NCBI RefSeq assembly: GCF_018449635.1
Contig: NZ_JAAVUV010000001.1
Location: 1 to 64,000, forward strand
Origin: Caballeronia sp. dw_276
Lineage (GTDB): Bacteria; Pseudomonadota; Gammaproteobacteria; Burkholderiales; Burkholderiaceae
Length of the DNA stretch: 64,000 bases
Reading direction: 5' to 3'
This document shows positions 169-21,360 of the stretch, piece after piece. Position 1 is the stretch's first letter; each line of letters opens with the position of its first letter. The position numbers were made by a program, and so were the translations under genes. The notes beneath the pieces were generated by a model that worked only from the letters and a program-made list of their open reading frames with translations, searched no databases and was not told the DNA's origin.

Positions 169-1533
169 ATGCCCCTTTCGTCCGCCCCCACGTCGAACAC
201 CGGAACGCAAGCCATCAGGTCACCCGCCACGCCGGGCGTCCACGACTGGACATGCCCGTTTTGCCCCCTGCTCTGCGATGACATCACGACCATCGTCCAC
301 GATGACGGCACACTCAGCGCCCCCGACACTAATTGCCCTCGCCTCACTAACGCACTCACATGGTTCACAGAAACCCCCGCATCAACCCCATCAATCGATG
401 ACACCGACACCGACCTCGACTCGGCGCTGACCCGCGCCATCGAAATATTGCAAGGCACCAAGCGCCCGCTCTTCGGCGGACTCGCCACCGACGTCGCCGG
501 CGTTCGCGCGCTCTATCCCCTCGCCGCCGATTGCGGCGCGATCCTCGATCATCTGCATGGCGATTCCATGGCGGCATCGAATGCGGCATTGCAGGATCGC
601 GGCGCGTTTCTCACCACACTCTCTGAAGTGCGAGCGCGAGCCGACTTGCTGATCATGTTTCGCAGCACGCCATCGGCGAAATATCCAAGGTTCTACGAAC
701 GCGTGCTTGGCGGCTCGAACCAGCCGCGCAACCTGATTTTCGTCGGTTGCGATGCCGATCCCGCAGCCGGAAATCTGGAGAACGCCAACTCGCATTGCAT
801 CCTCAAAGACGCCGATCCATTCGATCTTCTCGCCATCTGGTCAGCACTGATGGAAGGCCGCGGCGCTGCATCTTTCAGCGATACCAACATGTCCCAGGCA
901 CTCGCGGCGCTGGTGGAACGCGTGAGCGCCGCACGTTACACGGCCGTGATCTACGAACCCGCAGCGCTGCCCGAGCCGCATGCGGCGCTGTTGATAGAGG
1001 CATTGAACCGCATCGTCAAGGCGATCAACCGGACCACACGGGCAGGCACCCTCGCGCTCGGCGGCGACGATGGTGCGTTGACGGTCAATCAAGCCGTGAC
1101 GTGGCTATCGGGCTTTCCCTTGCGCACGCGTGTGTCGATGCTAACGCGTCTACCCGGCGAACCGCCGCTCGATCACGATGCATTGCGTTACGCAACAAAA
1201 CGGCTGCTGGAAACGCGCGAAGTCGATGCGTTGCTGTGGGTCTCGGCGTATCAGCCAGAGCCCTTGCCGCAAGCACTTGCCGATGACATCCCGTTGATCG
1301 TTTTGGGACATCCGGCGATGAGAAATCTGATAGGCAAGCGCTCGGCACCGACGGTATTCATCCCTGTCGCGACGCCGGGCATCAATCATGGCGGCCATGT
1401 TTTTCGTATCGATGGCTCCGTGGTCGCATCACTCACGGCTACGCGAGCGAGCGGACTGCCAACGGTTGCGTTCATTGCTGAGCGCTTGCATAAAGCACTC
1501 GCCACATCAGCCAACGCAGGGAGCCGGCCATGA
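169..1533 (+). CDS. fhcB: Formylmethanofuran dehydrogenase subunit B homolog (Fhc complex)
   Basis: Subunit B of the cytoplasmic formyltransferase/hydrolase complex, which in methylotrophs converts formyl-H4MPT to formate in formaldehyde oxidation. The N-terminus has the Cys-rich motif WTCPFCPLLCDD at about residues 25-36, typical of the FmdB/FwdB molybdopterin-enzyme fold. In methylotrophic bacteria this subunit is thought to be structural rather than redox active. The protein has 454 residues. The start at 169 lacks a clear Shine-Dalgarno sequence, so the first 20 or so residues are uncertain. Its stop overlaps the fhcA start by 4 bp, and it leads a tightly packed fhc operon. Family assignment is firm because fhcA, fhcD and fhcC follow. 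Confidence 0.92.
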   Translation: MPLSSAPTSNTGTQAIRSPATPGVHDWTCPFCPLLCDDITTIVHDDGTLSAPDTNCPRLTNALTWFTETPASTPSIDDTDTDLDSALTRAIEILQGTKRPLFGGLATDVAGVRALYPLAADCGAILDHLHGDSMAASNAALQDRGAFLTTLSEVRARADLLIMFRSTPSAKYPRFYERVLGGSNQPRNLIFVGCDADPAAGNLENANSHCILKDADPFDLLAIWSALMEGRGAASFSDTNMSQALAALVERVSAARYTAVIYEPAALPEPHAALLIEALNRIVKAINRTTRAGTLALGGDDGALTVNQAVTWLSGFPLRTRVSMLTRLPGEPPLDHDALRYATKRLLETREVDALLWVSAYQPEPLPQALADDIPLIVLGHPAMRNLIGKRSAPTVFIPVATPGINHGGHVFRIDGSVVASLTATRASGLPTVAFIAERLHKALATSANAGSRP

Positions 1534-3218
1534 GCTTGACGCGGCTTAGAGGCGGTACGCTCTACGATCCCGCCAACCGCGTCAATGGCGAGCGCCGCGA
1601 CCTGTATATACGCGACGGGCGTATCGTCGCCGAAGAACCCGGCGCCGCGATCGATCACGACTTCGATGCCGAAGGCATGGTCGTGATGGCGGGTGGTATC
1701 GACTTGCATTCGCACATTGGCGGCGGCAAAACCAATCTGTCGCGCTTGCTCTTGCCGGAAGATCATCGCAATTCAGGCGCCGCCGATGAACCAACCGGCG
1801 CCGACGGCCGCTATCTGAAGCTGCCCTCATGCGGCGTTTGCACGCCCGGCACGCTTGCGACCGGGTATCGATATGCGGAGATGGGGTACACCGCCGCGTT
1901 CGAACCGGCGATGATGCCGTCGAACGCACGCCACACGCATCTGGAAATGGGCGACACGCCGATCATCGATCACGGCGCATACGTGATGCTCGGCAACGAC
2001 GAACTGTTCCTGCAACTGCTCGCCGAACGCGACAGCTACGAACGGCTGCGTGATTACGTCGGCTGGACGATGCACGCGAGCAAGGCTCTCGGCGTGAAGG
2101 TGGTCAATCCCGGCGGCATCTCGGCGTTCAAGTTCAACCAGCGATCGTTGAACGTGGACGAACAACATGTTCATTACGGCATTACGCCGCGCGATGTGCT
2201 CCATACGTTGACGCGCGCGTTGACCGACTTGCGCGTGCCCCATCCGCTTCACGTTCATGCAAGCAACCTTGGCGTGCCGGGCAATATCGATTCGACGATC
2301 GCAACCATGGACGCCGCCGATGGCCTGCCGATCCATCTCACACACATCCAGTTTCATAGCTACGGCGTGGATGGACCGCGCAAGTTTTCTTCGGGCGCGA
2401 TCGCAATTGCAGAGGCGGTGAACGCGCGGCCGAACGTGTCCATCGATGTCGGGCAGATTATCTTCGGGCAGACCGTCACCGCTTCCGGCGACACCATGAT
2501 GCAATTCAAAAACGCGCCGCTCGGCAATCCGAAGAAGTGGATTGTCGGCGACATTGAATGCGATGCGGGATGCGGCATCGTGCCATTCAAATACCGCGAG
2601 CAGAGTTATGTGAACGCGCTGCAATGGATCATCGGACTCGAAATCTTTCTGCTGATCGCGGATCCGTGGCGCGTATCGATGACAACCGATCATCCCAACG
2701 GCGGGCCGTTCACGAGCTATCCGCATTTGATTCGCCTGTTAATGGACAAAGGCTTTCGCGACGAGCAACTCGCAACGCTGAATCCGGAAGCGCAAGTCGC
2801 AAGCACATTGCCGGAGCTCAAACGCGAGTTCTCGCTTTACGACATCGCCATCATCACGCGCGCCGGACCGGCGCGTCTGCTCGGGCTCAACGACCGCGGA
2901 CATCTGGGTGTGGGCGCGGCGGCGGATATCGCGGTGTATCGCGAACATGCGAATAAGGAACGCATGTTCACATCGCCGGCTTATGTGTTCAAGGACGGTC
3001 AACTCGTCGCACGCGACGGCACGCTGGTCGCAACCCCAACGGGCGGGATTCATTACGTGTCGCCGGAATTCGATCGCAGCATCGAAAAGACGTTGAAGGC
3101 ATATGCCGCGACGAATCTGGTCGGCAATCCGGCGAATGTCGCCATCAGCGACGACGAAATCTGCGCGTGTTGCCGCGGCGGCCGCTTGCTGCCGGTTGCG
3201 TGCTTGAGCGGGGCCTAG
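1530..3218 (+). CDS. fhcA: Formylmethanofuran dehydrogenase subunit A homolog (Fhc complex hydrolase)
   Basis: Amidohydrolase-fold subunit that hydrolyses the formyl group from the methofuran-type carrier to give formate. The metal-binding HxH motif is seen in GGIDLHSHIGG (His60 and His62), followed by other amidohydrolase-like segments such as HLTHIQFHSYG and MTTDHPNGG. Length is 562 residues, normal for the family. The start ATG at 1530 overlaps the fhcB stop (ATGA), so translation is probably coupled. Fourteen bases separate it from fhcD. The C-terminus has an unusual Cys pair (CACCRGG). Confidence 0.95.
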   Translation: MSLTRLRGGTLYDPANRVNGERRDLYIRDGRIVAEEPGAAIDHDFDAEGMVVMAGGIDLHSHIGGGKTNLSRLLLPEDHRNSGAADEPTGADGRYLKLPSCGVCTPGTLATGYRYAEMGYTAAFEPAMMPSNARHTHLEMGDTPIIDHGAYVMLGNDELFLQLLAERDSYERLRDYVGWTMHASKALGVKVVNPGGISAFKFNQRSLNVDEQHVHYGITPRDVLHTLTRALTDLRVPHPLHVHASNLGVPGNIDSTIATMDAADGLPIHLTHIQFHSYGVDGPRKFSSGAIAIAEAVNARPNVSIDVGQIIFGQTVTASGDTMMQFKNAPLGNPKKWIVGDIECDAGCGIVPFKYREQSYVNALQWIIGLEIFLLIADPWRVSMTTDHPNGGPFTSYPHLIRLLMDKGFRDEQLATLNPEAQVASTLPELKREFSLYDIAIITRAGPARLLGLNDRGHLGVGAAADIAVYREHANKERMFTSPAYVFKDGQLVARDGTLVATPTGGIHYVSPEFDRSIEKTLKAYAATNLVGNPANVAISDDEICACCRGGRLLPVACLSGA

Positions 3219-3231
3219 CGCATACACGGTC

Positions 3232-4173
3232 ATGCAGATCAACGACACGCTCATCGACGACACCTTTGCCGAAGCCTTCCCGATGAAGGCGACGCGCCTC
3301 ATCATCACCGCGCACACGCCGGTCTGGGCGCAGCACGCGGCGCATTCGCTGACAGGCTTCGCGACGTCGGTGATCGGATGCGGTTGCGAGGCGGGTATCG
3401 AGCGCGTTCTGACAGGCGACGAAACGCCCGACGGACGGCCTGGAATCGCCGTCCTGATGTTCGCGGTATCGACAAAAGAGTTGGCCAAGCAAATCGAGCG
3501 GCGCGTCGGCCAATGCGTGCTGACCTGTCCGACCACCGCCGTTTACAGCGGCATCGACCCAACCACAAGCCGCGCGCCGCTTTCGGACAACGCACCGCTT
3601 GGCAGCGGCCTGCGTTTTTTCGGCGATGGCTGGCAAATTTCGAAGATGATCGGCGAGACACGATATTGGCGCGTCCCGGTCATGGATGGCGAGTTCGTCT
3701 GTGAAGAAAGCACGGTCACGGTAAAGGCGGTAGGCGGCGGCAACCTGCTGTTCCTCGCACGCGATACGGACAGCGCGTTGCATGTTGCCGAGACCGCCGT
3801 TGCCGCCATGCGTCGCCTGCCGAATGTAATCATGCCCTTTCCAGGCGGCGTCGTGCGCTCCGGTTCTAAAGTGGGCTCGAAATATGCTGCAGCGCCTGCA
3901 TCGACGAACGATGCGTTCTGCCCGACGCTGACCGGTCTGTCGAGAAAAAGCGAGCTGGATTCTGAAGTGGGGTGCGTGCTGGAGATCGTGATCGACGGCT
4001 TGACCGACGCCGACGTGGGCGCGGCGATGACCGCAGGCATCGCAGCGGCGGTCGAACTCGGGCGCACGGCCGGCGTGCTGCGTATATCGGCGGGAAATTA
4101 TGGCGGCAAACTGGGCCCGTATCACTTCCATCTGCACCAGCTTGCGGCAGACGTGGCCGGGAGGCGCGCATGA
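3232..4173 (+). CDS. fhcD: Formylmethanofuran--tetrahydromethanopterin formyltransferase
   Basis: Transfers the formyl group between H4MPT and the methofuran-type cofactor, as the Ftr subunit of the Fhc complex. The N-terminus reads IDDTFAEAFPMKATR followed by GFATSVIGCGCEAGIER, which is near-diagnostic for Ftr/FhcD. The C-terminus NYGGKLGPYHFHL is also typical. At 313 residues it is slightly longer than the usual 300. The stop TGA overlaps the fhcC start (ATGA at 4170), so coupling is likely. It marks the segment as part of an H4MPT-linked C1 pathway; genes for H4MPT synthesis, mch and mtdB are not in the window. Confidence 0.96.
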   Translation: MQINDTLIDDTFAEAFPMKATRLIITAHTPVWAQHAAHSLTGFATSVIGCGCEAGIERVLTGDETPDGRPGIAVLMFAVSTKELAKQIERRVGQCVLTCPTTAVYSGIDPTTSRAPLSDNAPLGSGLRFFGDGWQISKMIGETRYWRVPVMDGEFVCEESTVTVKAVGGGNLLFLARDTDSALHVAETAVAAMRRLPNVIMPFPGGVVRSGSKVGSKYAAAPASTNDAFCPTLTGLSRKSELDSEVGCVLEIVIDGLTDADVGAAMTAGIAAAVELGRTAGVLRISAGNYGGKLGPYHFHLHQLAADVAGRRA

Positions 4174-4994
4174 CCACGATCACGCTGCGCGTCAGGAATG
4201 CCCCTGGTTTTCGCGTGAATGCAGACCGTTTGCTGCCGACGGCGCTGGCGGCATTGCCAATGGATGAAATCGCGCGTCTCGTGTTGCCCGCAAGCAATGA
4301 AAGCTGCGCGGTCGGCGATATTTTCGATGTCACGCGAATCGAAGGCGAAAACGATGCAGCGCTTGTCATAGAAGGCGATGCGCATTGGCTCGACCGCCTG
4401 GGCGCGAAGATGACGCAGGGTTGTATCGATGTCCATGGATCCGCCGGCGATTACACCGGCTTTCAAATGGCGGGCGGCGTATTGCAAATCGATGGCGACG
4501 CAGGCCATTTCACCGGCTGCGAGATGAAAGGCGGCCGTCTGACGCTCGGCGGCAACGCGGGCGACTTCGCGGCGGGCGCATTGCCGGGCGACATGGAAGG
4601 CATGACCGGCGGCACGCTGACGGTCCACGGCAACGCCGGCGCGCGCCTTGGCGACCGCATGCGCCGCGGCCTGGTGCTGATCGGCGGCGATGCCGGCGAA
4701 TGCGCGGCGTCGCGGCTTGTTGCGGGAACGATCGGCATTGCGGGGAATGTAGGCCCGAATTTCGGCTATGGCATGCGCCGCGGCACGGTGTTGCTCGCCC
4801 AAAAGCCAGACCGGATACCACCCACATTCACCGATGGCGGCCGCGGTTTCGATGTGTTCTGGCGCCTTCTGACGCGTTCGCTCGCGGCGGAACTGGCGCC
4901 GTTCTCGGGTTTTCGGGCGGACACGCTGCCGCGTCGCTATTCAGGCGACCTTGCCGTGGACGGACGCGGAGAAGTGCTGATCGTCGGATCGTGA
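4170..4994 (+). CDS. fhcC: Formylmethanofuran dehydrogenase subunit C homolog (Fhc complex)
   Basis: Fhc complex subunit with a beta-helix built from short Gly-rich repeats. About eight copies of patterns like GSAGDYTGFQMAGG, GDAGHFTGCEMKGG and GNAGDFAAGALPGD run through residues 85-205, as in FmdC/FwdC and the glutamate synthase alpha C-terminal domain. I chose ATG 4170 because it overlaps the fhcD stop and gives the family-like start MTTITLRVRN. A longer in-frame reading from 3972 would run deep into fhcD and is rejected. The protein has 274 residues and closes the fhcBADC set. Confidence 0.95.
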   Translation: MTTITLRVRNAPGFRVNADRLLPTALAALPMDEIARLVLPASNESCAVGDIFDVTRIEGENDAALVIEGDAHWLDRLGAKMTQGCIDVHGSAGDYTGFQMAGGVLQIDGDAGHFTGCEMKGGRLTLGGNAGDFAAGALPGDMEGMTGGTLTVHGNAGARLGDRMRRGLVLIGGDAGECAASRLVAGTIGIAGNVGPNFGYGMRRGTVLLAQKPDRIPPTFTDGGRGFDVFWRLLTRSLAAELAPFSGFRADTLPRRYSGDLAVDGRGEVLIVGS

Positions 4995-5635: not shown

Positions 5636-6556
5636 ATGAAAATCAAGGTGCTGGGTTCATCGGCGGGAGGCGGGTTTCCGCAATGGAACTGCAATTGCCG
5701 CAATTGCGCCGGCGTGCGCAACGGTACGGTCGATGCACAGCGTCGTACGCAGTCATCGATCATTGTCAGCGCGACGGGCGACGACTGGCTGCTCGTGAAT
5801 GCGTCGCCTGATCTGCTCGCGCAGATCGCGGCACATCCGGAGTTGCAACCGGCGCGGCGCGCGCGCGACAGCGGCATTGCGGCGGTCATCACCATGGACG
5901 CCCAGATCGATCATGTCACCGGCCTGCTGATGCTGCGCGAACGCGACACGCCGCTGCCGCTCTATGTCACCGACGCCGTCCTGCAGGACTTGAGCACGGG
6001 CTTGCCGGTTGTATCGATACTTGCGCATTACTGCGGCGTTGAACGCCACACGGTTCCGCTCGACGGGTCGTCATTCAGCATTCCCGCGTTGCCCGGAATT
6101 CGCATCGAAGCATTGCCGTTGTCGAGCAAGGCGCCGCCCTACTCGCCGCATCGCGCGGCGCCGCAACGCGGTGACAATATCGGGCTGACGTTCATAAACG
6201 AGGCCACCGGCAAGCGTGCGTTTTACGCGCCCGGCTTGGGCGCGCTCGAACCGCACGTGCTCGAAGCGATGAACGCCGCCGACCTCCTGCTCGTGGATGG
6301 CACGCTCTGGACGCCAGACGAAATGATCGAACTCGGGCTGTCGAAAAAGACCGCTGCCGACATGGGCCATCTTGCGCAAACGGGTCCGGGCGGCATGATC
6401 GAGGTGCTTGATTCCATCGAACGTGCGGGAGCGCGCAAGGTCCTCATTCACATCAACAACACGAATCCCATCCTGATAGAAGACGGTCCCGAACGGCGGC
6501 GGCTCGCGGAGCACGGCATAGAAATCGCCTTCGACGGCATGGCATTCGATCTTTGA
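5636..6556 (+). CDS. pqqB: PQQ biosynthesis protein PqqB
   Basis: Metallo-beta-lactamase-fold protein of the PQQ pathway, proposed to be an iron-dependent hydroxylase acting on the PqqA-derived Glu-Tyr dipeptide. The N-terminus MKIKVLGSSAGGGFPQWNC with the zinc-site motif CNCRNC (Cys19, 21 and 24) and the segment DAQIDHVTGLL are hallmarks. It has 306 residues, the usual size. It starts 25 bp after the cytochrome b561 gene and is followed after 30 bp by pqqC. Unlike many PQQ operons, no pqqA precedes it. Confidence 0.97.
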   Translation: MKIKVLGSSAGGGFPQWNCNCRNCAGVRNGTVDAQRRTQSSIIVSATGDDWLLVNASPDLLAQIAAHPELQPARRARDSGIAAVITMDAQIDHVTGLLMLRERDTPLPLYVTDAVLQDLSTGLPVVSILAHYCGVERHTVPLDGSSFSIPALPGIRIEALPLSSKAPPYSPHRAAPQRGDNIGLTFINEATGKRAFYAPGLGALEPHVLEAMNAADLLLVDGTLWTPDEMIELGLSKKTAADMGHLAQTGPGGMIEVLDSIERAGARKVLIHINNTNPILIEDGPERRRLAEHGIEIAFDGMAFDL

Positions 6557-6586
6557 ACACGCATTGGCACTTTGCAGGAGAAACAT

Positions 6587-7324
6587 GTGAACGGCCCGAA
6601 TCATGAAGCGAATCGTAAAGGCACCCGAGATGCAAGCAAGACCCCCTGGACGCGCGAAGAGTTCGAAGCACAACTGCGCGCGAAGGGCGCGGCCTATCAC
6701 ATCCATCATCCGTTCAACGTAAAGATGAACGAAGGCGGTTGTTCACGGGAACAGATCCGCGGCTGGGTGGCGAACCGCTTTTATTATCAGATCAACATCC
6801 CGCTGAAAGATGCGGCGGTGATGTCGAACTGTCCTGATCGCGAGACCCGGCGGCGCTGGGTGTTGCGAATTCTCGATCACGATGGCTACGGCGACGACGA
6901 AGGCGGCATCGAAACATGGGCGCGCTTAGGCGATGCTGTCGGTCTGACCCGCGACGAACTCTGGTCGCTGGAGCATGTGGCGCCAGGCGTGAAATTCGCC
7001 GTCGATGCCTACGTCAACTTCGCGCGCCGCGCGCCGTGGCAAGAAGCCGTGTGTTCATCGCTTACAGAAATTTTCGCGCCGCAAATCCACAAGGACCGAC
7101 TCGCGACATGGCCCACGTGTTATCCGTGGATTGAAGCTGACGGCCTCACGTATTTCCGCTCGCGCATTTCATTGGCGCAGCGCGACGTGGAACACGGCCT
7201 GCAAGTCACACTCGATTACTTCAAGACGCGCGAACAGCAGGAACGCGCGCTTGAGATCCTGCAATTCAAACTCGATATCTTGTGGTCGATGCTCGACGCT
7301 ATAGAAAAGGCCTTTCCGCAATGA
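6587..7324 (+). CDS. pqqC: Pyrroloquinoline-quinone synthase PqqC
   Basis: Cofactor-free oxidase that performs the final ring closure and eight-electron oxidation to PQQ. Family signatures include [33 protein letters not shown] and LDHDGYG. I chose the GTG at 6587 because GCAGGAG lies 6-7 bases upstream; an ATG two bases earlier is out of frame, and a TTG at 6572 would lack a ribosome binding site. The resulting 245 residues match the family. Its stop overlaps the pqqD start (ATGA at 7321). Confidence 0.96.
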
Positions 7325-7593
7325 CATCGCCCACGCCTCTGCTGAAGCTCAAGGGAATCTTCCGGCTGCAATGGGAGCCGGCGCAGGACGCGCACGTGCT
7401 GCTCTATCCCGAAGGCATGGTGAAGCTCAATCAAAGCGCCGGCGAAATCCTGAAACGCTGTGACGGCACGCGCGATATCGACACCTTGATTGCCGACTTG
7501 CAGCAAGCGTTCAACACGCAGGATCTCGGCGACGAGGTAAGGTTGTTCATTGCCGAAGCCGGGCGGCGCGGATGGCTGGAGGAAGCGTCATGA
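7321..7593 (+). CDS. pqqD: PQQ biosynthesis peptide chaperone PqqD
   Basis: Small RiPP-recognition protein of 90 residues that holds the PqqA precursor peptide and presents it to PqqE. Recognisable segments are [23 protein letters not shown] and the winged-helix part [16 protein letters not shown]. It overlaps pqqC by 4 bp at the start and pqqE by 4 bp at the end, so the three genes are probably translated as a coupled unit. A separate pqqD implies that a separate PqqA peptide must exist somewhere in the genome. Confidence 0.96.
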
Positions 7594-8768
7594 CCGCCAA
7601 CGTCGTTGCGCCGCCGCTGTGGCTGCTTGCGGAGCTTACATATAGGTGCCCGCTGCATTGTGCGTTCTGCTACAACCCCGTCAACTACACGGACCACAGC
7701 AGCGAACTCACGACCGACCAATGGATCGGCGTGCTTCGTGAAGCGCGCGCGCTTGGCGCCGCGCAACTCGGTTTCTCGGGCGGCGAACCACTGTTGCGCG
7801 ACGACCTCGAAGTACTCGTGCGCGAAGGACGGCAACTTGGTTTCTACACGAACCTGATTACATCGGGTATTCGTCTGACCGACAAACGTCTCGATGCATT
7901 GAAGGACGCCGGGCTCGATCACATCCAGCTGTCGTTCCAGGATTCGACCCAGGAACTCAACGACTTTCTGAGCAGTACCCGCACGTTCGACCTGAAGAAC
8001 CGCGTTGCCAAGTCGATCAAGGCGCATGGTTTCCCAATGGTCCTGAACTGCGTGCTCCACCGATACAACCTGCCGCACGTGGACAAGATCATCGACATGG
8101 CGCTTGAGATGGGCGCCGAATATCTCGAGCTCGCGAACACGCAGTACTACGGCTGGGCGCACGCGAACCGTGCGCAACTGATGCCGACTGCCGAGCAGTT
8201 GAAAGAAGCCGAAGCCGTGGTGGAGCGATACAGAGAGAAAATCGGTCATCGCTGCAAGATCTACTTCGTCGTGCCCGACTACTTCGAGACACGGCCGAAG
8301 AAATGCATGAACGGCTGGGGCTCCGTATTCCTCGGCGTTGCGCCCGACGGCGCCGCGCTGCCCTGCCACACCGCCCGCTCGCTTCCAGGCCTCACCTTCC
8401 CGAACGTCAAGGACACATCCGTACGCGACATTTGGTACGAAAGCGATGCGTTCAATCGCTTTCGCGGTTTCGACTGGATGAAAGAGCCATGCCGAAGTTG
8501 CGAAGAGAAAACCATCGATGCCGGTGGTTGCCGCTGCCAGGCGTATCTGCTGACGGGCGACCCGGCCAACGCGGACCCTGTCTGCGATAAATCACCCCAT
8601 CACGAAACGGTGATCAACGTGGTAAGAAAGGCCGCAGAACAGCGCGAGCCCGAAGAGCATCCGATTGTGTTTCGCAACGACAGTAACTCTCGCCGTCTGG
8701 CGGCATCGAAGGAACGCGGCGAGCCCGAACCTCACGACGTCGCCGATCTTGCGGGAGCACGCAAATGA
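7590..8768 (+). CDS. pqqE: PqqA peptide cyclase PqqE (radical SAM)
   Basis: Radical SAM/SPASM enzyme that forms the C-C bond between Glu and Tyr of PqqA. The radical SAM cluster motif is CPLHCAFC (Cys20, 24 and 27), followed by GFSGGEPLLRDDLE. SPASM-type cysteines appear in the C-terminal third (CMNGWGSVF, LPCHTARS, CRSCEEK, GGCRCQAY). ATG 7590 overlaps the pqqD stop; an in-frame ATG at 7572 lies inside pqqD. It has 392 residues, with a charged C-terminal tail of about 50 residues past the last SPASM Cys. Its stop overlaps the next regulator gene by 4 bp. Confidence 0.97.
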   Translation: MTANVVAPPLWLLAELTYRCPLHCAFCYNPVNYTDHSSELTTDQWIGVLREARALGAAQLGFSGGEPLLRDDLEVLVREGRQLGFYTNLITSGIRLTDKRLDALKDAGLDHIQLSFQDSTQELNDFLSSTRTFDLKNRVAKSIKAHGFPMVLNCVLHRYNLPHVDKIIDMALEMGAEYLELANTQYYGWAHANRAQLMPTAEQLKEAEAVVERYREKIGHRCKIYFVVPDYFETRPKKCMNGWGSVFLGVAPDGAALPCHTARSLPGLTFPNVKDTSVRDIWYESDAFNRFRGFDWMKEPCRSCEEKTIDAGGCRCQAYLLTGDPANADPVCDKSPHHETVINVVRKAAEQREPEEHPIVFRNDSNSRRLAASKERGEPEPHDVADLAGARK

Positions 8769-9481
8769 CCATCGCGGATATCAGTGTTCTTCTCGTCGAT
8801 GACCACGCTGTGGTGCGCGAAGGTTATAGGCGCTTGCTGGAGCTCAGTCCGGACATCAGCGTCGCAGGCGAAGCCGCGGACGCGGCGCAAGCCTACCAGC
8901 GCTTCTGCGCGCTGAAGCCGGACGTGGTTGTCATGGATCTCGCGCTGCCGGGCGCAAGCGGCATTGAAGCAATGCGGCGCATGCTCGCGCGCGAGCCCGA
9001 CGCCCACGTTCTTATCTTCAGCGTGCATGAAGAAACAATCTTCGTCCGGCGCGCGCTCGATGCCGGCGCACGCGGCTACGTGACGAAGGCAAGCGCGCCA
9101 GACGTGCTGGTGGAAGGCGTGCGCGCGGTGGCCGGACGCGCACGCTATCTGAGCCCCGACATCTCGCAGGCGCTCGCGTTGCGCGAGGCTTTCCAGGAAG
9201 GGCCGCCGGGACGGCAATTGTCGGCGCGTGAATTCGAGGTGCTACGGCTGCTAGTGCAGGGCTACACGTTGCCGAACATCGCGGAGAGACTGGGCCTGAG
9301 TCAAAAGACAGTGGCCAACCATCAATCGGTGATTCGTCAGAAATTCGGCGCGGACAACGGCGTGCAACTCGCGCAGATGGCGAATCGCCTGGGCCTTCAT
9401 TTCTCCGACTTCGCCAGTTCCGCAAGCTCGCTCGGGTCCCTTGGATCGCTGGGTTCATTCAGCCCGGGCAATCCGGCCTGA
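8765..9481 (+). CDS. NarL/FixJ-family response regulator coupled to pqqE
   Basis: Response regulator of 238 residues with an N-terminal receiver (Asp58 in VVMDLALPG) and a C-terminal LuxR-type helix-turn-helix at about 160-220 (LSAREFEVLRLLVQGYTLPNIAERLGLSQKTVANH). The start overlaps the pqqE stop (ATGA), so its level should follow PQQ synthesis. NarL-type regulators beside PQQ genes control quinoprotein alcohol oxidation in pseudomonads (AgmR/ErbR), which supports a similar role by inference. The last 25 residues are low complexity (repeated SLGS), encoded in the 85 bp shared with the convergent kinase gene. Confidence 0.9.
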   Translation: MTIADISVLLVDDHAVVREGYRRLLELSPDISVAGEAADAAQAYQRFCALKPDVVVMDLALPGASGIEAMRRMLAREPDAHVLIFSVHEETIFVRRALDAGARGYVTKASAPDVLVEGVRAVAGRARYLSPDISQALALREAFQEGPPGRQLSAREFEVLRLLVQGYTLPNIAERLGLSQKTVANHQSVIRQKFGADNGVQLAQMANRLGLHFSDFASSASSLGSLGSLGSFSPGNPA

Positions 9482-10455
9482 ACCGGCACACGCGCGCAAA
9501 AGAGAAACCCGCTGTCCGGCTGGCTCGCGACATGAAACTCGCCGCCGAGCGCCTCGACGCGTTCACGCATGCCGATCAGGCCCAGGCCCGCGCGCGGTTT
9601 TGTCAGATCGATACCGGGACCGTCGTCCGTCATGGTCACGACAATCTCCCCGTGGCTCGCACGCGTATCGTCTGAAGTCCGAACCAAATAAATCTCCACA
9701 CGCGAACTCCTCGCGAACTTCGACACGTTCGTCAGCCCTTCCTGCACCAGCCGATACAGCGTGATGTTCACCACGTCCGCGAGATTGGCGAAGTCGCCGT
9801 CAACGGTCAGCGTGAACGATGCCTGCGGCAAGCGCTCGCGCCAGCTTTCAACGCAATGTTCGAGCGCGCTGGGCAAGCCGAATTCATCGAGGCCGATGGG
9901 GCGCAAGCGCCGGATCATGCCGCCAATCTGCTTGTAGACGGTGCTCGCGCTTTGCATGACCGCGAGCGACAGCCGATGAACCTCGGGTTCCCCCTGAGTC
10001 GACAGGTCCCGTATGCGCCCTGCATCCAGCGCGATCGCGTTGAGATACTGGCCGAGTTCGTCGTGAAGTTCGCGCGCGAGGTGTCGACGCTCGTTTTCCT
10101 GCGCGCCAATGCTTTCGCTTGCAAGCCGGCGATTGTCAGCAAGCAGTCGTGCCGCCTTCTCTTCAAGCGCGCGGCGATGCAGCAATTCACGCTGCGACTC
10201 GCGATACCGGCGCCACGCGAACCATGCCAGGCCGATAGCGAACACGACCAGGGTGGGTGGAAATTCATCGAGTTGAAAACGCTCGAAGCGGCGCGTCAGG
10301 GAATACGTCAACTCGCCGACTTCAAGGCGCATGCAGATGAGCGCCGCCGTTATTGTCAGCGCAAGCACGCAGACGAGGTCGCGCCATGCTGCCGAGTGAG
10401 ACGGGCGCGCATTGACAAGAGAAGTCGTGGAGTCGGGTTGGGGTTCGGGTCGCAT
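9397..10455 (-). CDS. NarL-type sensor histidine kinase (HisKA_3)
   Basis: Sensor kinase of 352 residues with two membrane segments (about 25-43 and 66-82), a short coiled linker, a HisKA_3 domain with phospho-acceptor His131 in ELHDELGQYL, and an HATPase_c domain (TMTDDGPGIDL and AGLGLIGMRERVEALGG). This class pairs with NarL/LuxR regulators. The convergent regulator next door is the obvious partner, and their 3' ends overlap by 85 bp on opposite strands. With no periplasmic domain of any size, it probably senses in the membrane or through another protein. Confidence 0.9.
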   Translation of the reverse strand: MRPEPQPDSTTSLVNARPSHSAAWRDLVCVLALTITAALICMRLEVGELTYSLTRRFERFQLDEFPPTLVVFAIGLAWFAWRRYRESQRELLHRRALEEKAARLLADNRRLASESIGAQENERRHLARELHDELGQYLNAIALDAGRIRDLSTQGEPEVHRLSLAVMQSASTVYKQIGGMIRRLRPIGLDEFGLPSALEHCVESWRERLPQASFTLTVDGDFANLADVVNITLYRLVQEGLTNVSKFARSSRVEIYLVRTSDDTRASHGEIVVTMTDDGPGIDLTKPRAGLGLIGMRERVEALGGEFHVASQPDSGFLFCARVPVQAGLPGLNEPSDPRDPSELAELAKSEK

Positions 10456-10631: not shown

Positions 10632-12926
10632 ATGAACAAGCTACCCTTCAAGCGGCGCCGGGCACTGCGCTTGTGCTTTGGCGGCGCGCTGGCCGGCCTG
10701 AGCGTGACAAGCTGGGCACAGGAAGCGGCTACGCCCGTGGCGGCATCTGACACGGCGGTGACGCAACTCGCGCCGATCGTCGTGATCGGGACAACGCCGC
10801 TGCTTGGCATCGGAACGCCACTGGAACATGTGCCCGCCAACGTGCAGACCATTCGCGGACGAGACATCGACCAGCAGCATCGCGCCACGCTTACGGACTA
10901 CTTTGCGAGCAACCTCACGAGCGTCGATATCAACGAAGCGCAAGGCAACTCGTCTCAAGTCGATATCAACTATCGTGGCTTTACTGCGTCGCCCTTGCTC
11001 GGCACACCGCAAGGCTTATCGGTTTTCCTCGATGGCGTGCGCGTCAACGAGCCTTTCGGCGACGTCGTCAATTGGGACCTGATACCGCAAGCGGCGATCA
11101 ATACCATCCAGTTGATCCCGGGTTCCAACCCGACCTTCGGTTTGAACACACTCGGCGGCGCGCTCGCGATCACCACAAAAAACGGCCGCAGCAATCCGGG
11201 CGGTGAAGCGGAAATCTCCGCGGGATCATGGGGACGCAAGATCGCGCAGATCCAGCAAGGCGGTGTGATCGGCAGCAACCTCGACTACTACTTCACCGCC
11301 AACGCAACCAACGACGACGGCTGGGCCGACCACAACTCCAGCCGCATGCGTCAGGCGTTCGGCAAACTGCGCTACACCGACGCCGACACCACGCTGTCGC
11401 TGTCCATGGGCGGCGCCGACAACACCCTGCAAGGTTCGCAGACCATTCCGCGCTCGTTCCTGGATAACCGCAAACAGGCCTATACATTCCCCGACCAGAA
11501 CCACAACAGCGTCGGCTACCTGACCTTTTCCGGCGAACATTACTTCACACCGAACGTGCAGTTGAGCGGCAATGTGTACTACCGGCATTATCGGAACACG
11601 AATGTCAGCAGCAACGTGAACGACGACTTCGGCACGGTCGACGACGACGGCGACGTCAACACGCTTCAGGCAACCAACGATCAATCCGTGATCGTCACCG
11701 ACAGCTACGGCGCAAGCCTGCAGATGACCTTGCTCGGCAAGCTCGCCGGTCACGACAACCAGTTCGTCGCGGGCGTGGCGGCGGACTTCGCCAACTCGCA
11801 CTTCACGCAATCGTCGCAGGATGCCGAGTTCACGGATTCACGCGCAACGACAGGCATCGGCGGATTCCAGCCTCAGACCGACGCCGCCACGCGTAATCAG
11901 AACTTCGGCGTGTACATCGAAAACACGTTGTCGATCACGCAGCAATGGTCGCTGACGCTGGCTGGGCGCTACAACTGGTCGAAGTCTGTCATCGGCGATG
12001 AAAGCGGCGTGCAGCCACTGCTCGACGGCAACCATACGTTCTCGCGCTTCAACCCGGCGGTCGGCGTCAACTGGAATCCGACATCCACGTTCACAGCCTA
12101 CGCCACGTATAACGAAGGCATGCGCTCGCCAACGGCTATCGAACTTGCCTGCGCCGATCCGGCGTCGCCATGTTCCTTGCCTAACGACTTCATTGCGGAT
12201 CCGACGCTGCAACCGGTGATATCGAAGACATTCGAAATTGGCGCGCGCGGGCAACTCGGACACGCGACCACGTGGAGTGCGGCGATCTACCGGACCACGC
12301 TCGACAACGACATCCAGTTCGTCAGCAGCAACGGCGCGGCGAGCACGCTCGGTTTCTTCCAGAACGTGGGAAAGACCCAGCGCCAGGGCTTCGAGCTTGC
12401 GGGACGCACACAGTACGGACCGGTTGGCGTGAGCGCGAGCTACAGCTACGTGGACGCAACGTATCGTTCGACGTGGACTGAAAGCAGCGGCAGCAATTCG
12501 AGCGCGGACGACGATGGCAACATCACGGTGCACAAAGGCGACCGCATTCCAGGCATTCCGCAAAATACGGTGAAGCTGCGGCTCGATTACGCGGCCACGC
12601 CCAAGTGGAATGTCGGCAGCAACCTGACGTACCGGGGCAGCATCTTTGCTCGCGGCGATGAAGACAACCAGGATGTGAACGGCAAGATTGCAGGGTATTT
12701 CCTGATCGACCTGGACACGACCTACAACATCACGAAGCAGCTTCAGGTATTCGCGAGCGTGACGAACCTGCTCAACAAGCACTACGCAAGCTTTGCCATC
12801 CTTGGCCAGAATTTCTTCAACGGAGCAAACCATACCTTCGATGGCGCCAACCCCATCAACGAGCAATTCCTGGGGATCGGCGCGCCGCGCGGGGCATGGG
12901 TTGGATTGCGGTACGCGTGGAAATAA
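10632..12926 (+). CDS. TonB-dependent outer-membrane receptor, substrate unknown
   Basis: Outer-membrane receptor of 764 residues with a signal peptide ending near SVTSWAQ (about residue 28), a plug domain (VPANVQTIRGRDI, GGALAITTKNG) and a beta-barrel. ATG 10632 follows AGGAGA; longer in-frame readings lack this. The predicted extracellular part contains acidic stretches DDFGTVDDDGDVN (about 328-340), SADDDGNIT (about 625-633) and GDEDNQDVNGK (about 673-684), which could bind metal ions. It lies next to PQQ genes and a PQQ-associated beta-propeller, so a metal or metallophore needed by a quinoprotein is a reasonable guess. The chain ends LRYAWK rather than in an aromatic residue. Confidence 0.9.
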   Translation: MNKLPFKRRRALRLCFGGALAGLSVTSWAQEAATPVAASDTAVTQLAPIVVIGTTPLLGIGTPLEHVPANVQTIRGRDIDQQHRATLTDYFASNLTSVDINEAQGNSSQVDINYRGFTASPLLGTPQGLSVFLDGVRVNEPFGDVVNWDLIPQAAINTIQLIPGSNPTFGLNTLGGALAITTKNGRSNPGGEAEISAGSWGRKIAQIQQGGVIGSNLDYYFTANATNDDGWADHNSSRMRQAFGKLRYTDADTTLSLSMGGADNTLQGSQTIPRSFLDNRKQAYTFPDQNHNSVGYLTFSGEHYFTPNVQLSGNVYYRHYRNTNVSSNVNDDFGTVDDDGDVNTLQATNDQSVIVTDSYGASLQMTLLGKLAGHDNQFVAGVAADFANSHFTQSSQDAEFTDSRATTGIGGFQPQTDAATRNQNFGVYIENTLSITQQWSLTLAGRYNWSKSVIGDESGVQPLLDGNHTFSRFNPAVGVNWNPTSTFTAYATYNEGMRSPTAIELACADPASPCSLPNDFIADPTLQPVISKTFEIGARGQLGHATTWSAAIYRTTLDNDIQFVSSNGAASTLGFFQNVGKTQRQGFELAGRTQYGPVGVSASYSYVDATYRSTWTESSGSNSSADDDGNITVHKGDRIPGIPQNTVKLRLDYAATPKWNVGSNLTYRGSIFARGDEDNQDVNGKIAGYFLIDLDTTYNITKQLQVFASVTNLLNKHYASFAILGQNFFNGANHTFDGANPINEQFLGIGAPRGAWVGLRYAWK

Positions 12927-12930
12927 GCTG

Positions 12931-12965
12931 AAAAAAGGGGTTGTTCTAGAAGAACCCCTTTTTTA
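12931..12965. terminator. Bidirectional rho-independent terminator
   Basis: A run of A, an 11-bp hairpin (GGGGTTGTTCT / AGAAGAACCCC with one G-G mismatch) and a run of T. It sits exactly between the 3' ends of the convergent TonB receptor and beta-propeller genes and works on paper in both directions. Confidence 0.9.
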
Positions 12966-12971
12966 TTCGAA

Positions 12972-14054
12972 CTACTCGATCGACCCCGAGCTTCGCGGAT
13001 AAGTCACGACACCCCAGGGCAACGGCAAGCCTTCGATCTGCTTGACGGTCTGGTAGCTGCTGCCATCGAGTACATACACCGCGTTAGACCGGCCGCATGC
13101 AAGCAGGACCTTCGATCCGTCCGGCGTAAAACTGAAGTGCCAGCAGCGCTGACCCACGGGCACGTCGCTGATGTGATCGTAAGACGTGGCATCGAAAACC
13201 TGAAGCGTCTTGCCGCGCGCCGCCGCGACCAGCAAGCGCTTGCCCGATGGATCGAACGCAATGCCGTACGGTCCCATTTTGGTGTCGACGGTCTTGATGG
13301 GCTTGAGGCTACGCGCGTCCAGAACGACGAACTTGTTGGTGTTCTCGAGCGTCACCACGTACTGCTTGCCATTGGGGGAGCGTTTGATGCCGCGCGGCCG
13401 TGAACCATGATCGAGCTTGATGCTGCGCATCGGCTTGCCCGTACCTGCGTGATAGACCGACACGGTGTCGTCGCCCTCGTTGGTGACGAGCAGCTCCTTG
13501 CCATCGGCGGAAAATTCGACGCCTTCCGTCTCATGCCCACTTTTGACCGAACGTATGACGCGCAGCGTCTTCAAGTCGACAATCGCGATCTCGGCGGGCG
13601 GACTGTTGGCGTCGTCATCGTCCTTGCCCGCTGCGCCGCCAGGCGCTCCCGATGCTCCCGGAGGGCCTTCGGCTCCCTTCGGCGGACCGCCGCTTTCGCC
13701 AGGTTCATATGTCACATAGGCATACCCGCGATACACCCGCACGAACTCCGGATTCTGGCCGATCTTCGCGCGACGCACGACTTCGCCGGTCGCGGTATCG
13801 ATTTCGGAAAGGTCCGCAGTCTTCTTGTTCGCGACGAGCAGGCGCTTGCCGTCGTCGGTGAGACTCAGGCCGCGCGGGCCATCGTCGCCGACGGCGAAGG
13901 TTTTGGTAAGCGTCATCTGGTCCAGATCGATAACCCCGACGCCCGCCGTTTCGCTCGTCACATAGGCGACCGGCGCGGCGGCCAGCGCAACCCCCGCGCT
14001 CAACGTCGTCACCGATGCAAGCGCCAAGTGCGCCGCCGCTCTCTTGAATTGCAT
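12972..14054 (-). CDS. PQQ-associated YVTN-type beta-propeller protein, exported
   Basis: Periplasmic beta-propeller of 360 residues with a signal peptide (cleavage near GVALAA-AP, about residue 27) and seven YVTN-like blades, for example YVTSETAGVGVIDL, GRSNAVYVLDGSSY and repeated SPNGKQ/DPSGKRLLV motifs. It resembles the family noted for co-occurrence with PQQ-dependent catabolism. Residues 118-153 form a collagen-like Gly/Pro-rich insert that ends in an acidic GKDDDDAN patch, between blades. Its promoter must lie in 14055-14209. Function in the family is not established; scaffolding or cofactor/metal delivery to a quinoprotein is possible. Confidence 0.85.
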   Translation of the reverse strand: MQFKRAAAHLALASVTTLSAGVALAAAPVAYVTSETAGVGVIDLDQMTLTKTFAVGDDGPRGLSLTDDGKRLLVANKKTADLSEIDTATGEVVRRAKIGQNPEFVRVYRGYAYVTYEPGESGGPPKGAEGPPGASGAPGGAAGKDDDDANSPPAEIAIVDLKTLRVIRSVKSGHETEGVEFSADGKELLVTNEGDDTVSVYHAGTGKPMRSIKLDHGSRPRGIKRSPNGKQYVVTLENTNKFVVLDARSLKPIKTVDTKMGPYGIAFDPSGKRLLVAAARGKTLQVFDATSYDHISDVPVGQRCWHFSFTPDGSKVLLACGRSNAVYVLDGSSYQTVKQIEGLPLPWGVVTYPRSSGSIE

Positions 14055-14209
14055 GATCGTCTCCGCGTGTTTTTTATTGGTTCGTCGCTTGAGTAGTCTG
14101 GGACGTGCCGATGCGTTCGCATCGCCGGCGACATGGTCAACTTAGCCCATCGGGCGGCCGCTTGACAATGGATGAGGGCGGGAGATTCTCCCGAAAGCGG
14201 TTCAGAGGC

Positions 14210-14761
14210 TCAGCGGGTGGCGTCGGCGTCGTCTGCAAGACGATCGACCAGCCCTTTCATGCCGCGGCGCCACGACAAATCCGTGTTGCCCCGGATATCG
14301 ACTGAACGCTGGAATACGGCTTTGCCTGTTGCGACATCTTCCACGCGCAGATTGATATTGATGATCAGGTTGCTGACTTTCTGCACCCAGCACACGCCGA
14401 CGCGCTCCACGTTGAGCTTGCGGCCGATCTGCAGTTCGCAACCGTTGCAAGCGTTCAAATCCTGCGCGCCGGAAAGCTTGGCGATCATGTCGCTGGCGCC
14501 GGCGTTGTCAGCTACCCGAAAGAGCTGGCGATCGCTCAATTGCGCGCGCAAGTCGTTGCTGATGAGGCCAAGACGCGCTTGCTGCGTGCGGTTGGTATCG
14601 GCGTCGTTGTAGGACGCGTTGTCGTCAATCAGCGTGCAGTCCATCACCGCGATCGACCGTTGCGCGGCCGCCGCCTGCGCTGTCTGCGACGCATATGAGA
14701 GCGCCGCCACGAGAATGACACACAGTGCTACACGATCAAATCCCCTTTGCAATTGCAGCAT
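14210..14761 (-). CDS. Exported DUF3280-like protein of the PQQ neighbourhood
   Basis: Secreted protein of 183 residues beginning MLQLQRGFDRVALCVILVAAL with a signal peptide cut near AQAAA. I chose ATG 14761 because GGAGG lies nine bases upstream; the longer frame adds 42 residues ahead of the signal. The mature part starts RSIAVMDCTLIDDN and contains a Cys pair motif NACNGCE and the pattern VGVCWVQKVSNLIININL, as in a family (DUF2380/DUF3280) often found beside quinoprotein alcohol dehydrogenase genes. Its biochemical role is unknown. Confidence 0.75.
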   Translation of the reverse strand: MLQLQRGFDRVALCVILVAALSYASQTAQAAAAQRSIAVMDCTLIDDNASYNDADTNRTQQARLGLISNDLRAQLSDRQLFRVADNAGASDMIAKLSGAQDLNACNGCELQIGRKLNVERVGVCWVQKVSNLIININLRVEDVATGKAVFQRSVDIRGNTDLSWRRGMKGLVDRLADDADATR

Positions 14762-14935: not shown

Positions 14936-15505
14936 TCAGCTCACGTACCCAAGATGCTCGGCCAGGATCACCGAGCCGATCGCGACCAGAATCAAACCGC
15001 CCGCAACTTCTGCACGCTGTCCGACCGCGCGGCCCAGAAAGCGCCCCACCATCACACCGATAGTCACCATGATCAGCGTCGCAAGTCCAATGGTTGCGGC
15101 CGTCGAGAAAATATTCACATCGATAAAGGCGAGTCCCGCCCCCACCGCCATGGCATCGATACTCGTCGCAAAGCCAGTTGCGGCCAGCAGCCAGAAACTA
15201 TGACGCACGGGCTTTTCGGCTTCGGGCGTAGGCGTGCTGAACCCGGAGCGGATCATGCGGAGTCCGAGCACGAGCAACAGGCCGAAGGCAATCCAGTGAT
15301 CCCACGACATGACGTACGGCGCCGCCGCCTTGCCGAGCGCCCAGCCAACCAGCGGCGTGATCGCCTCGATGACACCGAAGATCAGGCCTGTGCGCAATGC
15401 CTCGCGCATGCGCGGACGCTTGAGCGTAGCGCCTTTGCCCACGGCTGCGGCGAAGGCGTCCGTCGACATGGCAAAGGCGAGCAGGAGGGTGGAAGCGATA
15501 TTCAT
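14936..15505 (-). CDS. mntP: Manganese efflux pump MntP
   Basis: Inner-membrane Mn2+ exporter of 189 residues with six hydrophobic helices and the paired motifs [16 protein letters not shown] (near the N-terminus) and [18 protein letters not shown] (middle), which carry the Asp residues typical of MntP. ATG 15505 gives the canonical start [20 protein letters not shown] yybP-ykoY-type riboswitch lies in its leader, which independently supports Mn2+ control. Its position beside the PQQ/metal genes may be coincidental or may reflect metal balance. Confidence 0.95.
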
Positions 15506-15541
15506 GGGGCAATGATCATGTACGGGTCGGGACAGGAACAT

Positions 15542-15971: not shown

Positions 15972-17533
15972 GATCCGGTGCGCCTCGTGCAGCAGCTCGG
16001 CGAATGCGCCGCGCCCGGTACAGATGGACGGCGCTCAGCCTGGCGAATTCCCTGTCGCGCTTTCCGCTTCTCGCCGGCTTTGCCGGCACGGCGGTCGCGG
16101 TTTTGATGGCCGGCTTGTCCCTTGCCACGCTGTATCAGGGCCGCGAAGAGGCCCTCAGCCACGCGCAGGAGACATCGGCGAATCTGGTTTCGATCATTGG
16201 TGGCGACATTGCCCGTAACGTCGAAATTTACGATCTTTCGCTTCGTGCCGTGGTCGACGGCGCGCAGGACACCGCCGTCATGGCGCTTCCGCTCGACCTG
16301 CGCCGCCGGATTCTGTTCGACCGCGCAACCACCGCGGCGTACATAGGCGGCGGTTACGTGATCGATGCGCATGGCCGCGCCATCGTCAAGAACAACGCCA
16401 CGGCCGTGCCCGCCGAAACGTTCGCCGAGCGTGAATACTTCCGCGCCCATCAGCAGAATCCATCGGTCGGGCTGTTTTTCTCGCATCCTTACATGACGCA
16501 CGCAAACGGCGCGGCGATTGGGATGAGCCGGCGCATCAACGCGCCCGACGGATCATTTGCGGGCATCGCGCTGCTGACCGTGAACCTTCAATATTTCCGC
16601 TCGCTGCTGGACAAGATCGAGGTCGGGCCGAAGGGATCGATTTTCATTGTTCAGGATGACGGCGCGATGATCGTGCGCAAACCCTTTCTCGACAATGACC
16701 TCAGCCGCAACGTTTCCGGTTCGGCCTCTTTTGCCCGCATGACGCGCACGCGCTCGGGTTCGTACGTGGCGAAATCGCCAGTGGACGGCGTCGAGCGCAT
16801 CTACACCTTTGCGCACGTGCCGGGCACACCGTTCATCGTGGGCGTGGCGCCGGCGCAGGACGACGTGCTCGACACGTGGCGCGCGCGCAGCAGCGGGGTG
16901 GGCGTCCTGACGCTGCTGTTCGGCCTGAGTTTTATCGCGTTGTCATGGCTTTTGGCGCTGTCGTTGCGCGAACGGGCGCGAGCGCAGGAAGAACTCGTGC
17001 GGCTCGCGGGCACCGACGCGCTGACCGGCCTGCCGAACCGGCGCGCCTTCGACGAACGCATGGACGAGGAATGGCGGCGCGCGCGGCGAAGCAATACGGC
17101 GGTATCGGTATTGTTCATCGATGTGGATTATTTCAAGGCGTACAACGATAACTACGGCCACGCCGTTGGCGACGACGCGCTGGCGGCAGTTGCGGAGTGC
17201 ATCGCACTGTCGGTGCGGCGTCCCGGCGACATTCCCGCACGATACGGCGGCGAAGAGTTCGTGGTCCTCCTTCCCGACACCCAGATCGACGGCGCGCTTC
17301 ACATTGCCGAGACCATCCGCACGCGTATCAGGACGCGTTCGATTGCGCATCGGGGGAGTGTGATCGGGCGCCTGACGGTAAGTATTGGCTGCGCGACCGC
17401 CGCGCCGCCAGGTCTGGGCGGCGCCTACGGGCTGCTCAGCGCCGCCGACCAGCAACTCTACGAAGCCAAGGCCGCAGGCCGCGATTGCGTCCGTCCGATG
17501 ACGCTCGCGAACGTCGAAATCGCCCAGTCCTGA
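15968..17533 (+). CDS. Membrane diguanylate cyclase with periplasmic dCache-like sensor
   Basis: Makes c-di-GMP. The protein of about 521 residues has a first membrane helix near residues 33-53, a large periplasmic sensor of the Cache/PAS type (YIGGGYVIDAHGR, GPKGSIFIVQDDG), a second helix near 305-325 and a GGDEF domain. The active site is GGEEF (about 427-431), and an I-site RxxD (RPGD) lies five residues ahead, so product inhibition is likely. I preferred ATG 15968 (AAGG eight bases upstream) over GTG 15947. No phosphodiesterase lies nearby. Confidence 0.9.
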   Translation: MRSGAPRAAARRMRRARYRWTALSLANSLSRFPLLAGFAGTAVAVLMAGLSLATLYQGREEALSHAQETSANLVSIIGGDIARNVEIYDLSLRAVVDGAQDTAVMALPLDLRRRILFDRATTAAYIGGGYVIDAHGRAIVKNNATAVPAETFAEREYFRAHQQNPSVGLFFSHPYMTHANGAAIGMSRRINAPDGSFAGIALLTVNLQYFRSLLDKIEVGPKGSIFIVQDDGAMIVRKPFLDNDLSRNVSGSASFARMTRTRSGSYVAKSPVDGVERIYTFAHVPGTPFIVGVAPAQDDVLDTWRARSSGVGVLTLLFGLSFIALSWLLALSLRERARAQEELVRLAGTDALTGLPNRRAFDERMDEEWRRARRSNTAVSVLFIDVDYFKAYNDNYGHAVGDDALAAVAECIALSVRRPGDIPARYGGEEFVVLLPDTQIDGALHIAETIRTRIRTRSIAHRGSVIGRLTVSIGCATAAPPGLGGAYGLLSAADQQLYEAKAAGRDCVRPMTLANVEIAQS

Positions 17534-17658
17534 AGCGGGGCGCACGCGGCGCGCCTATTGGGATTCATCAGCGTAATTCGCCATTTCAACCAAGCACATG
17601 ATTTGCAAGGATTTTTTCCATCGGTATAATGCGACCTTCTCTCCGATGGCATCCTTCC

Positions 17659-18246
17659 ATGAGCCGACTACTCTTCTTGCTGACGTTGACCCTCGGTCTA
17701 TCGCTCGGTGCAATGCAAGGCGCCGCGGCTCAGGAACGCAGCATGGAGACGACTGCGGCCGTCATGGACCAGACCCTCGCCGCAAGCGAAGCCGACGCCG
17801 ACGCCCAGGCCAAGCATCAGGTTTCTCGTCTCATCTCGCAGAAATTCGGTGTTGCGCGCGCGAAAGCCGAACAGATTTCGACGGCGGTCATGTCGGCGGC
17901 ATCGAAATATTCGCTTCCTCCCGCGCTGTTGCTCGCGATCATCTCGATCGAATCCCGTTTCAAGGAAAACGCGCGCGGCGCAAATGGCGCCACGGGATTG
18001 ATGCAAGTCGTGCCGTCGGCGCATAAGAAACTGGTGCGCAATATCGACCTGACGGAAGCCGATGCGAACATCGAAGCCGGGTCGGCGATCCTCCACGGTT
18101 ACGTGCAGTCAGCACGCGGCGACGTGGATGCCGCCCTGAAAAGCTACGGCGGATCGAAAGCGTATGCAGAGAAAGTCAGTCTTCAGGTCAAGAAAATCTC
18201 GTCCCAGTTCGACACCGAACCCGCCGGCGCTCAAGCAGGCTATTGA
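17659..18246 (+). CDS. Lytic transglycosylase, SLT family
   Basis: Exported murein hydrolase of 195 residues with a signal peptide (MSRLLFLLTLTLGLSLGAMQGAAAQ) and a C-terminal SLT domain. Catalytic Glu98 is in ISIESRFKENARG, followed by GATGLMQVVPSAHK and ALKSYGG, the standard soluble-Slt motifs. ATG 17659 gives a clean signal peptide; the longer frame from 17629 adds ten unsupported residues. It stands alone 125 bp after the diguanylate cyclase gene. Confidence 0.9.
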   Translation: MSRLLFLLTLTLGLSLGAMQGAAAQERSMETTAAVMDQTLAASEADADAQAKHQVSRLISQKFGVARAKAEQISTAVMSAASKYSLPPALLLAIISIESRFKENARGANGATGLMQVVPSAHKKLVRNIDLTEADANIEAGSAILHGYVQSARGDVDAALKSYGGSKAYAEKVSLQVKKISSQFDTEPAGAQAGY

Positions 18247-18347
18247 GAGCAGCAGGCCGCTGCCGCCGCCCGTGCGCCATGTGGCAAGTCTCGCAAGTCC
18301 TCAGCGAATTCTATTGATCATCGGCGGCGCCGCATTGAGACGCGGTG

Positions 18348-20597: not shown

Positions 20598-20735
20598 TTA
20601 CGTCCCCAAAGCCGGTAGGCAAAACAGGCCGGGATCAGCTGATCGCGTGCGGGGCAAGGCTTCGCGTGCTTTGCATTATGTGCCGGAAATAAGAAGGGCG
20701 TGTGCGGATGGACGACGCGCCGGCGCGCCTTGGAC

Positions 20736-20771
20736 GAAAGAAAGCCGGCTGCATCTATCGATGCAACCGGC
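20736..20771 (-). terminator. Rho-independent terminator after the Gly-rich gene
   Basis: On the minus strand, an 11-bp stem (GCCGGTTGCAT / ATGCAGCCGGC with one T-G pair) is followed by TTTCTTTC. It lies about 25 bp past the 3' end of the Gly-rich protein gene. Confidence 0.75.
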
Positions 20772-20794
20772 CATCTTCCGGTTGAACTGACTGC

Positions 20795-21154
20795 TTATTG
20801 CGGTTTCGACATGGCGCCGCCGTTCGGCGCTGCGACGTTGCCGTTGTTGTTCGTGCTGCTGCCGTTGGCTTTCATGTTCGGTGCGTTGCCGGTTCCCGTA
20901 CCCACGCCGCCGCCCGTTGCAGTGGTGCCTGGCGCCGTGGCCATGCCCGCGCCGTTTGCGCCACCGGAGTTGGCGCCGCCCATGCCGCCTCCACCGCCCA
21001 CGCCCGCGCCATTACCACCGGCGCCTCCCGCAGCGCCACCGCCGCCACCGGCACCGCCGCCCGCCCCGCCGCCACCGCCTGCTTGCGCATAGACGCCGCC
21101 CGACAGGCCAAGGACAAGGGCCGACACCAGAATCTTCTTCGATATATGTTTCAT
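20795..21154 (-). CDS. Extremely glycine-rich exported small protein
   Basis: Protein of 119 residues with a clear signal peptide (MKHISKKILVSALVLGLSGGVYAQ). The mature part is almost entirely Gly, Ala, Asn, Thr and Ser, with long Gly runs at 26-60 and a less repetitive tail ending AAPNGGAMSKPQ. An upstream AGGAGG-like site (CTAGGAGGTTGC on the minus strand) supports expression, and its own terminator follows. No enzyme motif is visible. It could be a surface or matrix protein or a stress-induced structural protein; the function is unknown. Confidence 0.75.
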   Translation of the reverse strand: MKHISKKILVSALVLGLSGGVYAQAGGGGGAGGGAGGGGGAAGGAGGNGAGVGGGGGMGGANSGGANGAGMATAPGTTATGGGVGTGTGNAPNMKANGSSTNNNGNVAAPNGGAMSKPQ

Positions 21155-21286: not shown

Positions 21287-21360
21287 GGGTGTTTACGGAT
21301 TACGCAGCACTTGTGACCTCGGCGTGCATGGACAAGGCATTGTCAACGGGCTTTCCCGGG

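Follow-up and report, generated by a model that had tools for sequence, protein, structure and literature searches.

In Methylorubrum extorquens, La uptake requires the TonB-dependent receptor LutH and the Lut ABC transporter LutAEF, and La-dependent growth slows when the exported proteins LutB and LutG are lost (PMC7391723). In Pseudomonas putida at low La, growth requires PedA1A2BC, and an importer of this type was remarked to be present in all lanthanide-quinoprotein producers then known (PMC6839425). We searched the literature and found no uptake system described for the Burkholderia, Paraburkholderia and Caballeronia group. Here, we analyzed a window of 64,000 nucleotides from a Caballeronia genome with C. 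sordidicola and Burkholderia sp. Leaf177 as near relatives; the window encodes a TonB-dependent receptor, a beta-propeller and a DUF3280 protein near PQQ biosynthesis genes.

Like the Lut system, this locus combines a TonB receptor with exported proteins in a genome that encodes XoxF, and two loci with LutE-type ABC genes (L160 and L165) encode a receptor of the same clade together with the propeller and DUF3280. However, we found no LutE above cut-off here, and the likeness to LutH runs through these shared lut loci rather than through the sequence of LutH itself. We therefore did not file the host system as Lut, because the ABC ATPase was sought without success and orthology to LutH is only putative. 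With the Ped system of P. putida (PedA1A2BC and PedH), the locus shares a YVTN propeller, PedA2 in that case, tied to a lanthanide quinoprotein (PMC6839425); none of the characterised receptors has a homologue in P. putida, whereas here the ABC components are absent and the propeller falls below the TIGR03866 cut-off. The XoxF3 clusters of Acidobacteria and Gemmatimonadetes resemble this locus in gene content, since xoxF occurs there with a TonB receptor gene and one for a PQQ-associated propeller (PMC10875860), but they encode another XoxF clade and include an NRAMP gene.

The receptor locus and its genomic setting

XoxF5 is the sole methanol/ethanol-type quinoprotein of the host genome (TIGR03075 above cut-off). 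Its best structural matches were XoxF (E 1e-265), and it carries the motif DEWDYD, with the extra Asp of lanthanide enzymes, in place of the DEWDYA of Ca-type MxaF. The xoxF5 gene is on contig C66 and the receptor gene on the window contig. When mapped onto a close relative, the C66 end falls ~1 kb from the window start, and a methanol-oxidation island thus probably has one of its ends in the window. In the same relative, xoxF and the receptor gene are on a single contig, separated by 39 kb that hold H4MPT-synthesis and Calvin-cycle genes (encoded proteins read by eye). Calvin-cycle genes, for an apparent CbbX, small RuBisCO subunit and transketolase, were seen at L227:5811-14198 in the same island as XoxF5. 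The presence of these genes in the island suggests that methanol carbon is fixed as CO2.

Table 1. Features of the receptor locus, with positions in the window
Feature	Position	Strand	Remarks
Formylmethanofuran dehydrogenase/formyltransferase genes	169..4994	+	H4MPT-linked C1 oxidation; profile matches
pqqB, pqqC, pqqD, pqqE	5636..8768	+	PQQ biosynthesis; profile matches
LuxR-type response regulator	8765..9481	+	3' of pqqE; partner of the kinase; Response_reg and GerE
Histidine kinase	9397..10455	-	Divergent from receptor, 176 bp gap; HisKA_3 and HATPase_c
TonB-dependent receptor, 764 aa	10632..12926	+	Pfam Plug and TonB barrel; clade tied to lanthanide quinoproteins and lut/ped clusters
Inverted repeat with A/T tails	12931..12964		Receptor/propeller gap; read from sequence, missing from the consensus scan
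Exported YVTN-type beta-propeller, seven-bladed type	12972..14054	-	Related to TIGR03866 (PedA2/Lut propeller), under its cut-off
Acidic patch DDDD	13611..13622	-	Propeller residues 145-148; end of a variable Gly/Pro-rich insert
DUF3280 exported protein	14210..14761	-	PF11684; invariant CxxC; LpoB/PelC/TolB-N/CsgG fold group
mntP	14936-15541	-	Upstream of DUF3280/propeller, same strand
Mn riboswitch RF00080	15522-15699	-	In front of mntP; Rfam match; few Caballeronia loci only

An earlier note on this DNA had placed the receptor, propeller and DUF3280 genes directly beside the PQQ genes and treated them as one module. All three genes were confirmed at the positions given, but a regulator and a kinase (8765-10455) separate pqqE from the receptor gene. 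Furthermore, the propeller and DUF3280 genes are on the opposite strand and convergent with the receptor gene, so the three genes form two transcription units rather than a single operon. The inverted repeat between the units is, as read from its sequence, a probable bidirectional terminator. Of the 80 related loci that we compared, 68 have pqqE alongside the receptor, 56 the regulator, 53 the propeller, 27 DUF3280 and 4 mntP.

A kinase gene also adjoins receptor homologues in three other loci (L160, L173 and L188). The kinase of the window probably regulates the receptor, and we infer that the adjacent two-component system controls the receptor system. In Burkholderia and some Paraburkholderia, the receptor adjoins a different quinoprotein dehydrogenase together with pqqBCDE instead. 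PQQ neighbours were missing from receptor loci L060, L069, L098, L109, L117, L123 and L124; in two of these, both from Paraburkholderia (L117:12770-14469 and L123:12788-14487), apparent tonB-exbB-exbD genes follow the receptor and replace the PQQ genes.

The receptor clade and its association with lanthanide enzymes

In a receptor tree with several long outgroup branches, 18 homologues formed a clade with 100/100 support, and the receptors encoded in lut loci belonged to it. The earlier note had held that clustering with siderophore or B12 receptors would refute its reading; BtuB, FhuA, FepA and FecA, as well as PqqU, all fell outside this clade. The AlphaFold model of the receptor (pLDDT 79) matched PqqU with PQQ best in the PDB (TM 0.74/0.84), then FoxA, FhuE, FhuA and others. 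When the family of a LutE-positive genome (G357) was searched for a LutH-like receptor, the TonB matches reached only 23-25%.

We then compared the distribution of the receptor with that of lanthanide-related proteins. The receptor was found in 64 of 200 Burkholderiaceae genomes and XoxF5 in 36, of which 35 also had the receptor; the lone exception has stop codons in xoxF. In a wider sample of 399 Pseudomonadota genomes, the receptor profile matched 37 and the LutE/PedB ABC ATPase model (TIGR03864) matched 56. LutE was present in 26 of the 37 receptor genomes and absent from 11, compared with 30 of the 362 others (Fisher p 5e-17, shared ancestry ignored), and the receptor and LutE lay at most 12 kb apart in 19 of the 26 genomes with both. 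Two alphaproteobacterial lut clusters (L160 and L165) hold a member of the receptor clade, the propeller, DUF3280 and ABC genes together. The lanthanide-type second Asp was found in 29/29 quinoprotein dehydrogenases within 12 kb of a receptor versus 14/20 distant ones, a weak comparison (Fisher p 0.003, ancestry uncorrected).

Metal delivery to a lanthanide quinoprotein, as put forward in the earlier note, thus gains strong genomic support from the XoxF5-only island, the 35/36 co-occurrence, the co-localisation with LutE/PedB and the presence of all three proteins in two lut clusters; that the substrate is a lanthanide is what we infer from this context. The reasoning from Asp-rich receptor loops with EF-hand-like spacing did not survive. 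The Asp-rich stretches are present at the residues given, but a PROSITE-like EF-hand pattern had zero matches in them. Among the homologues compared (82 close, 16 distant), the loop at residues 328-345 varied in length and composition, one Asp was kept at residues 626-628, and G[DN]E was conserved at residues 675-677, where it resembles a strand motif of siderophore receptors. An EF-hand metal site in these loops was rejected for the absent pattern and the poor conservation.

Probable periplasmic partners and the absent ABC importer

The propeller scored 139.4 bits against TIGR03866, short of the curated cut-off of 287.3, and 49 bits against the YncE model; propellers of lut clusters scored 319-523 bits against TIGR03866. 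Its DDDD patch, pointed out in the earlier note, was borne out: at least three consecutive D/E residues were present in 49 of 51 homologues even though the insert is otherwise hypervariable, and lut propellers carry NEDD or similar at this site. The acidic patch may bind metal. The DUF3280 protein matched PF11684 with 129.9 bits (E 1.1e-37), above the gathering cut-off of 30.1. Its model (pLDDT 85.5) was nearest in Foldseek to GNA1162, LpoB, the TolB N-terminal domain, PelC and CsgG (E 1e-6 to 1e-3), and these folds suggest that the protein is no enzyme but an assembly or partner domain of the periplasm or envelope. The DUF3280 proteins of L160 and L165 are 36 and 29% identical to that of the host and share the CxxC and VQK/VEK-SN motifs.

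TIGR03864 (LutE) had no match above cut-off in the host genome. Nor did it have one in any of the 64 genomes with a close (at least 60%) receptor in the 200-genome family sample; the 8 genomes of this sample in which it passed the cut-off were exactly the 8 with a 35%-identical receptor. What is new is that LutE exceeded the cut-off in no sampled close-receptor genome, so the system resembles Lut but lacks the ABC importer known from it. A non-homologous importer could take the place of LutE.

The best explanation, and in our judgement a likely one, is that the protein at 10632..12926 serves as uptake receptor for a lanthanide or lanthanide chelate and works with periplasmic partners. The receptor would carry the lanthanide, probably as a small chelate, over the outer membrane for periplasmic XoxF5, and the propeller and DUF3280 protein would be its periplasmic partners, probably as metal-binding or assembly factors. 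Points that speak against this reading are the 11 receptor genomes that lack LutE, the receptor loci devoid of PQQ neighbours, the 23-25% TonB matches in the G357 family, the Ideonella homologue close to copper genes and the PqqU fold match. As the usual inner-membrane importer is missing, with no LutEF/PedBC detectable, the enzyme may receive its metal without cytoplasmic entry, and delivery may be wholly periplasmic. More tentatively, and with considerable doubt, we suggest that lanthanide supply in Burkholderia, Paraburkholderia and Caballeronia bypasses the cytoplasm altogether: the metal would pass from the receptor into the periplasm and, by way of the acidic-patch propeller and/or the DUF3280 protein, to the quinoprotein, a route that replaces the Lut/Ped ABC importer. 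A lanthanide system in these genera would add a large group of soil- and plant-associated bacteria to those that acquire rare earths. An importer-free system would also challenge the remark that every producer then known has a PedA1A2BC-type importer (PMC6839425), and would provide a natural case in which to test the need for any cytoplasmic import of lanthanides.

Alternative readings of the locus

As the main alternative, the receptor might be a PqqU-like PQQ transporter that recovers secreted PQQ, with the propeller as the counterpart of YncE. Both systems have a TonB receptor adjoining a beta-propeller (pqqU and yncE are divergent neighbours in E. coli), and PqqU is both the nearest E. coli receptor, at 24% identity, and the best fold match. 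The pqq genes adjoin the receptor in most of the 80 loci, and pqqU-pqq synteny occurs in four Burkholderiales genomes (PMC12124388). However, at least two of the three residues of the PqqU signature, Y99 (aromatic), R304 and R365 (PMC12124388), are missing. Y99 aligns to L123 of the receptor, a position that is never aromatic in the family, and R365 aligns to D397 or a gap; R304 aligns to Y320 or V342, an ambiguous assignment given the nearby R321 and R318, the latter being almost invariant in the family. The receptor reached 123 bits against the PqqU model NF041535, whose cut-off is 1200, and signature, model score and tree together led us to reject PqqU membership. Moreover, the host synthesises its own PQQ, the receptor clade accompanies LutE in other genomes, and the propeller scored far higher with the PedA2/Lut model than with that of YncE. 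We therefore regard PQQ recovery as unlikely.

An ordinary receptor for a siderophore or another metal chelate (iron or copper), placed beside C1 genes by position and acting outside lanthanide metabolism, appears quite improbable. The siderophore-receptor model TIGR01783 did match, and the Ideonella homologue (L188) has methanobactin-type copper genes in its vicinity. Yet the score of 162 bits falls short of the curated cut-off of 223.5, FhuA, FepA and FecA lie apart from the receptor clade, no siderophore synthesis genes were seen among the neighbours examined, and the receptor is strongly associated with XoxF5 and LutE. The Mn riboswitch and mntP upstream of DUF3280 and the propeller, on the same strand, raise the further idea that the two exported proteins serve manganese homeostasis, co-transcribed with mntP and unrelated to the receptor. 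We consider this highly improbable, as mntP accompanies the receptor in just 4 of the 80 loci against 53 for the propeller and 27 for DUF3280; on the same count, mntP and its riboswitch were rejected as parts of the module.

Two homologues were observed on plasmids. In the methanotroph Candidatus Methylocalor cossyra, a 40% homologue (L187:14938-17181) is plasmid-borne and lies amid transposases. A plasmid of Ideonella dechloratans (L188:11821-14145 and 17452-21906) carries a 37% homologue, a divergent kinase/regulator and a second TonB receptor. This homologue is close to methanobactin-type MbnP/MbnM copper genes, a context which hints that some members of the clade serve another metal.
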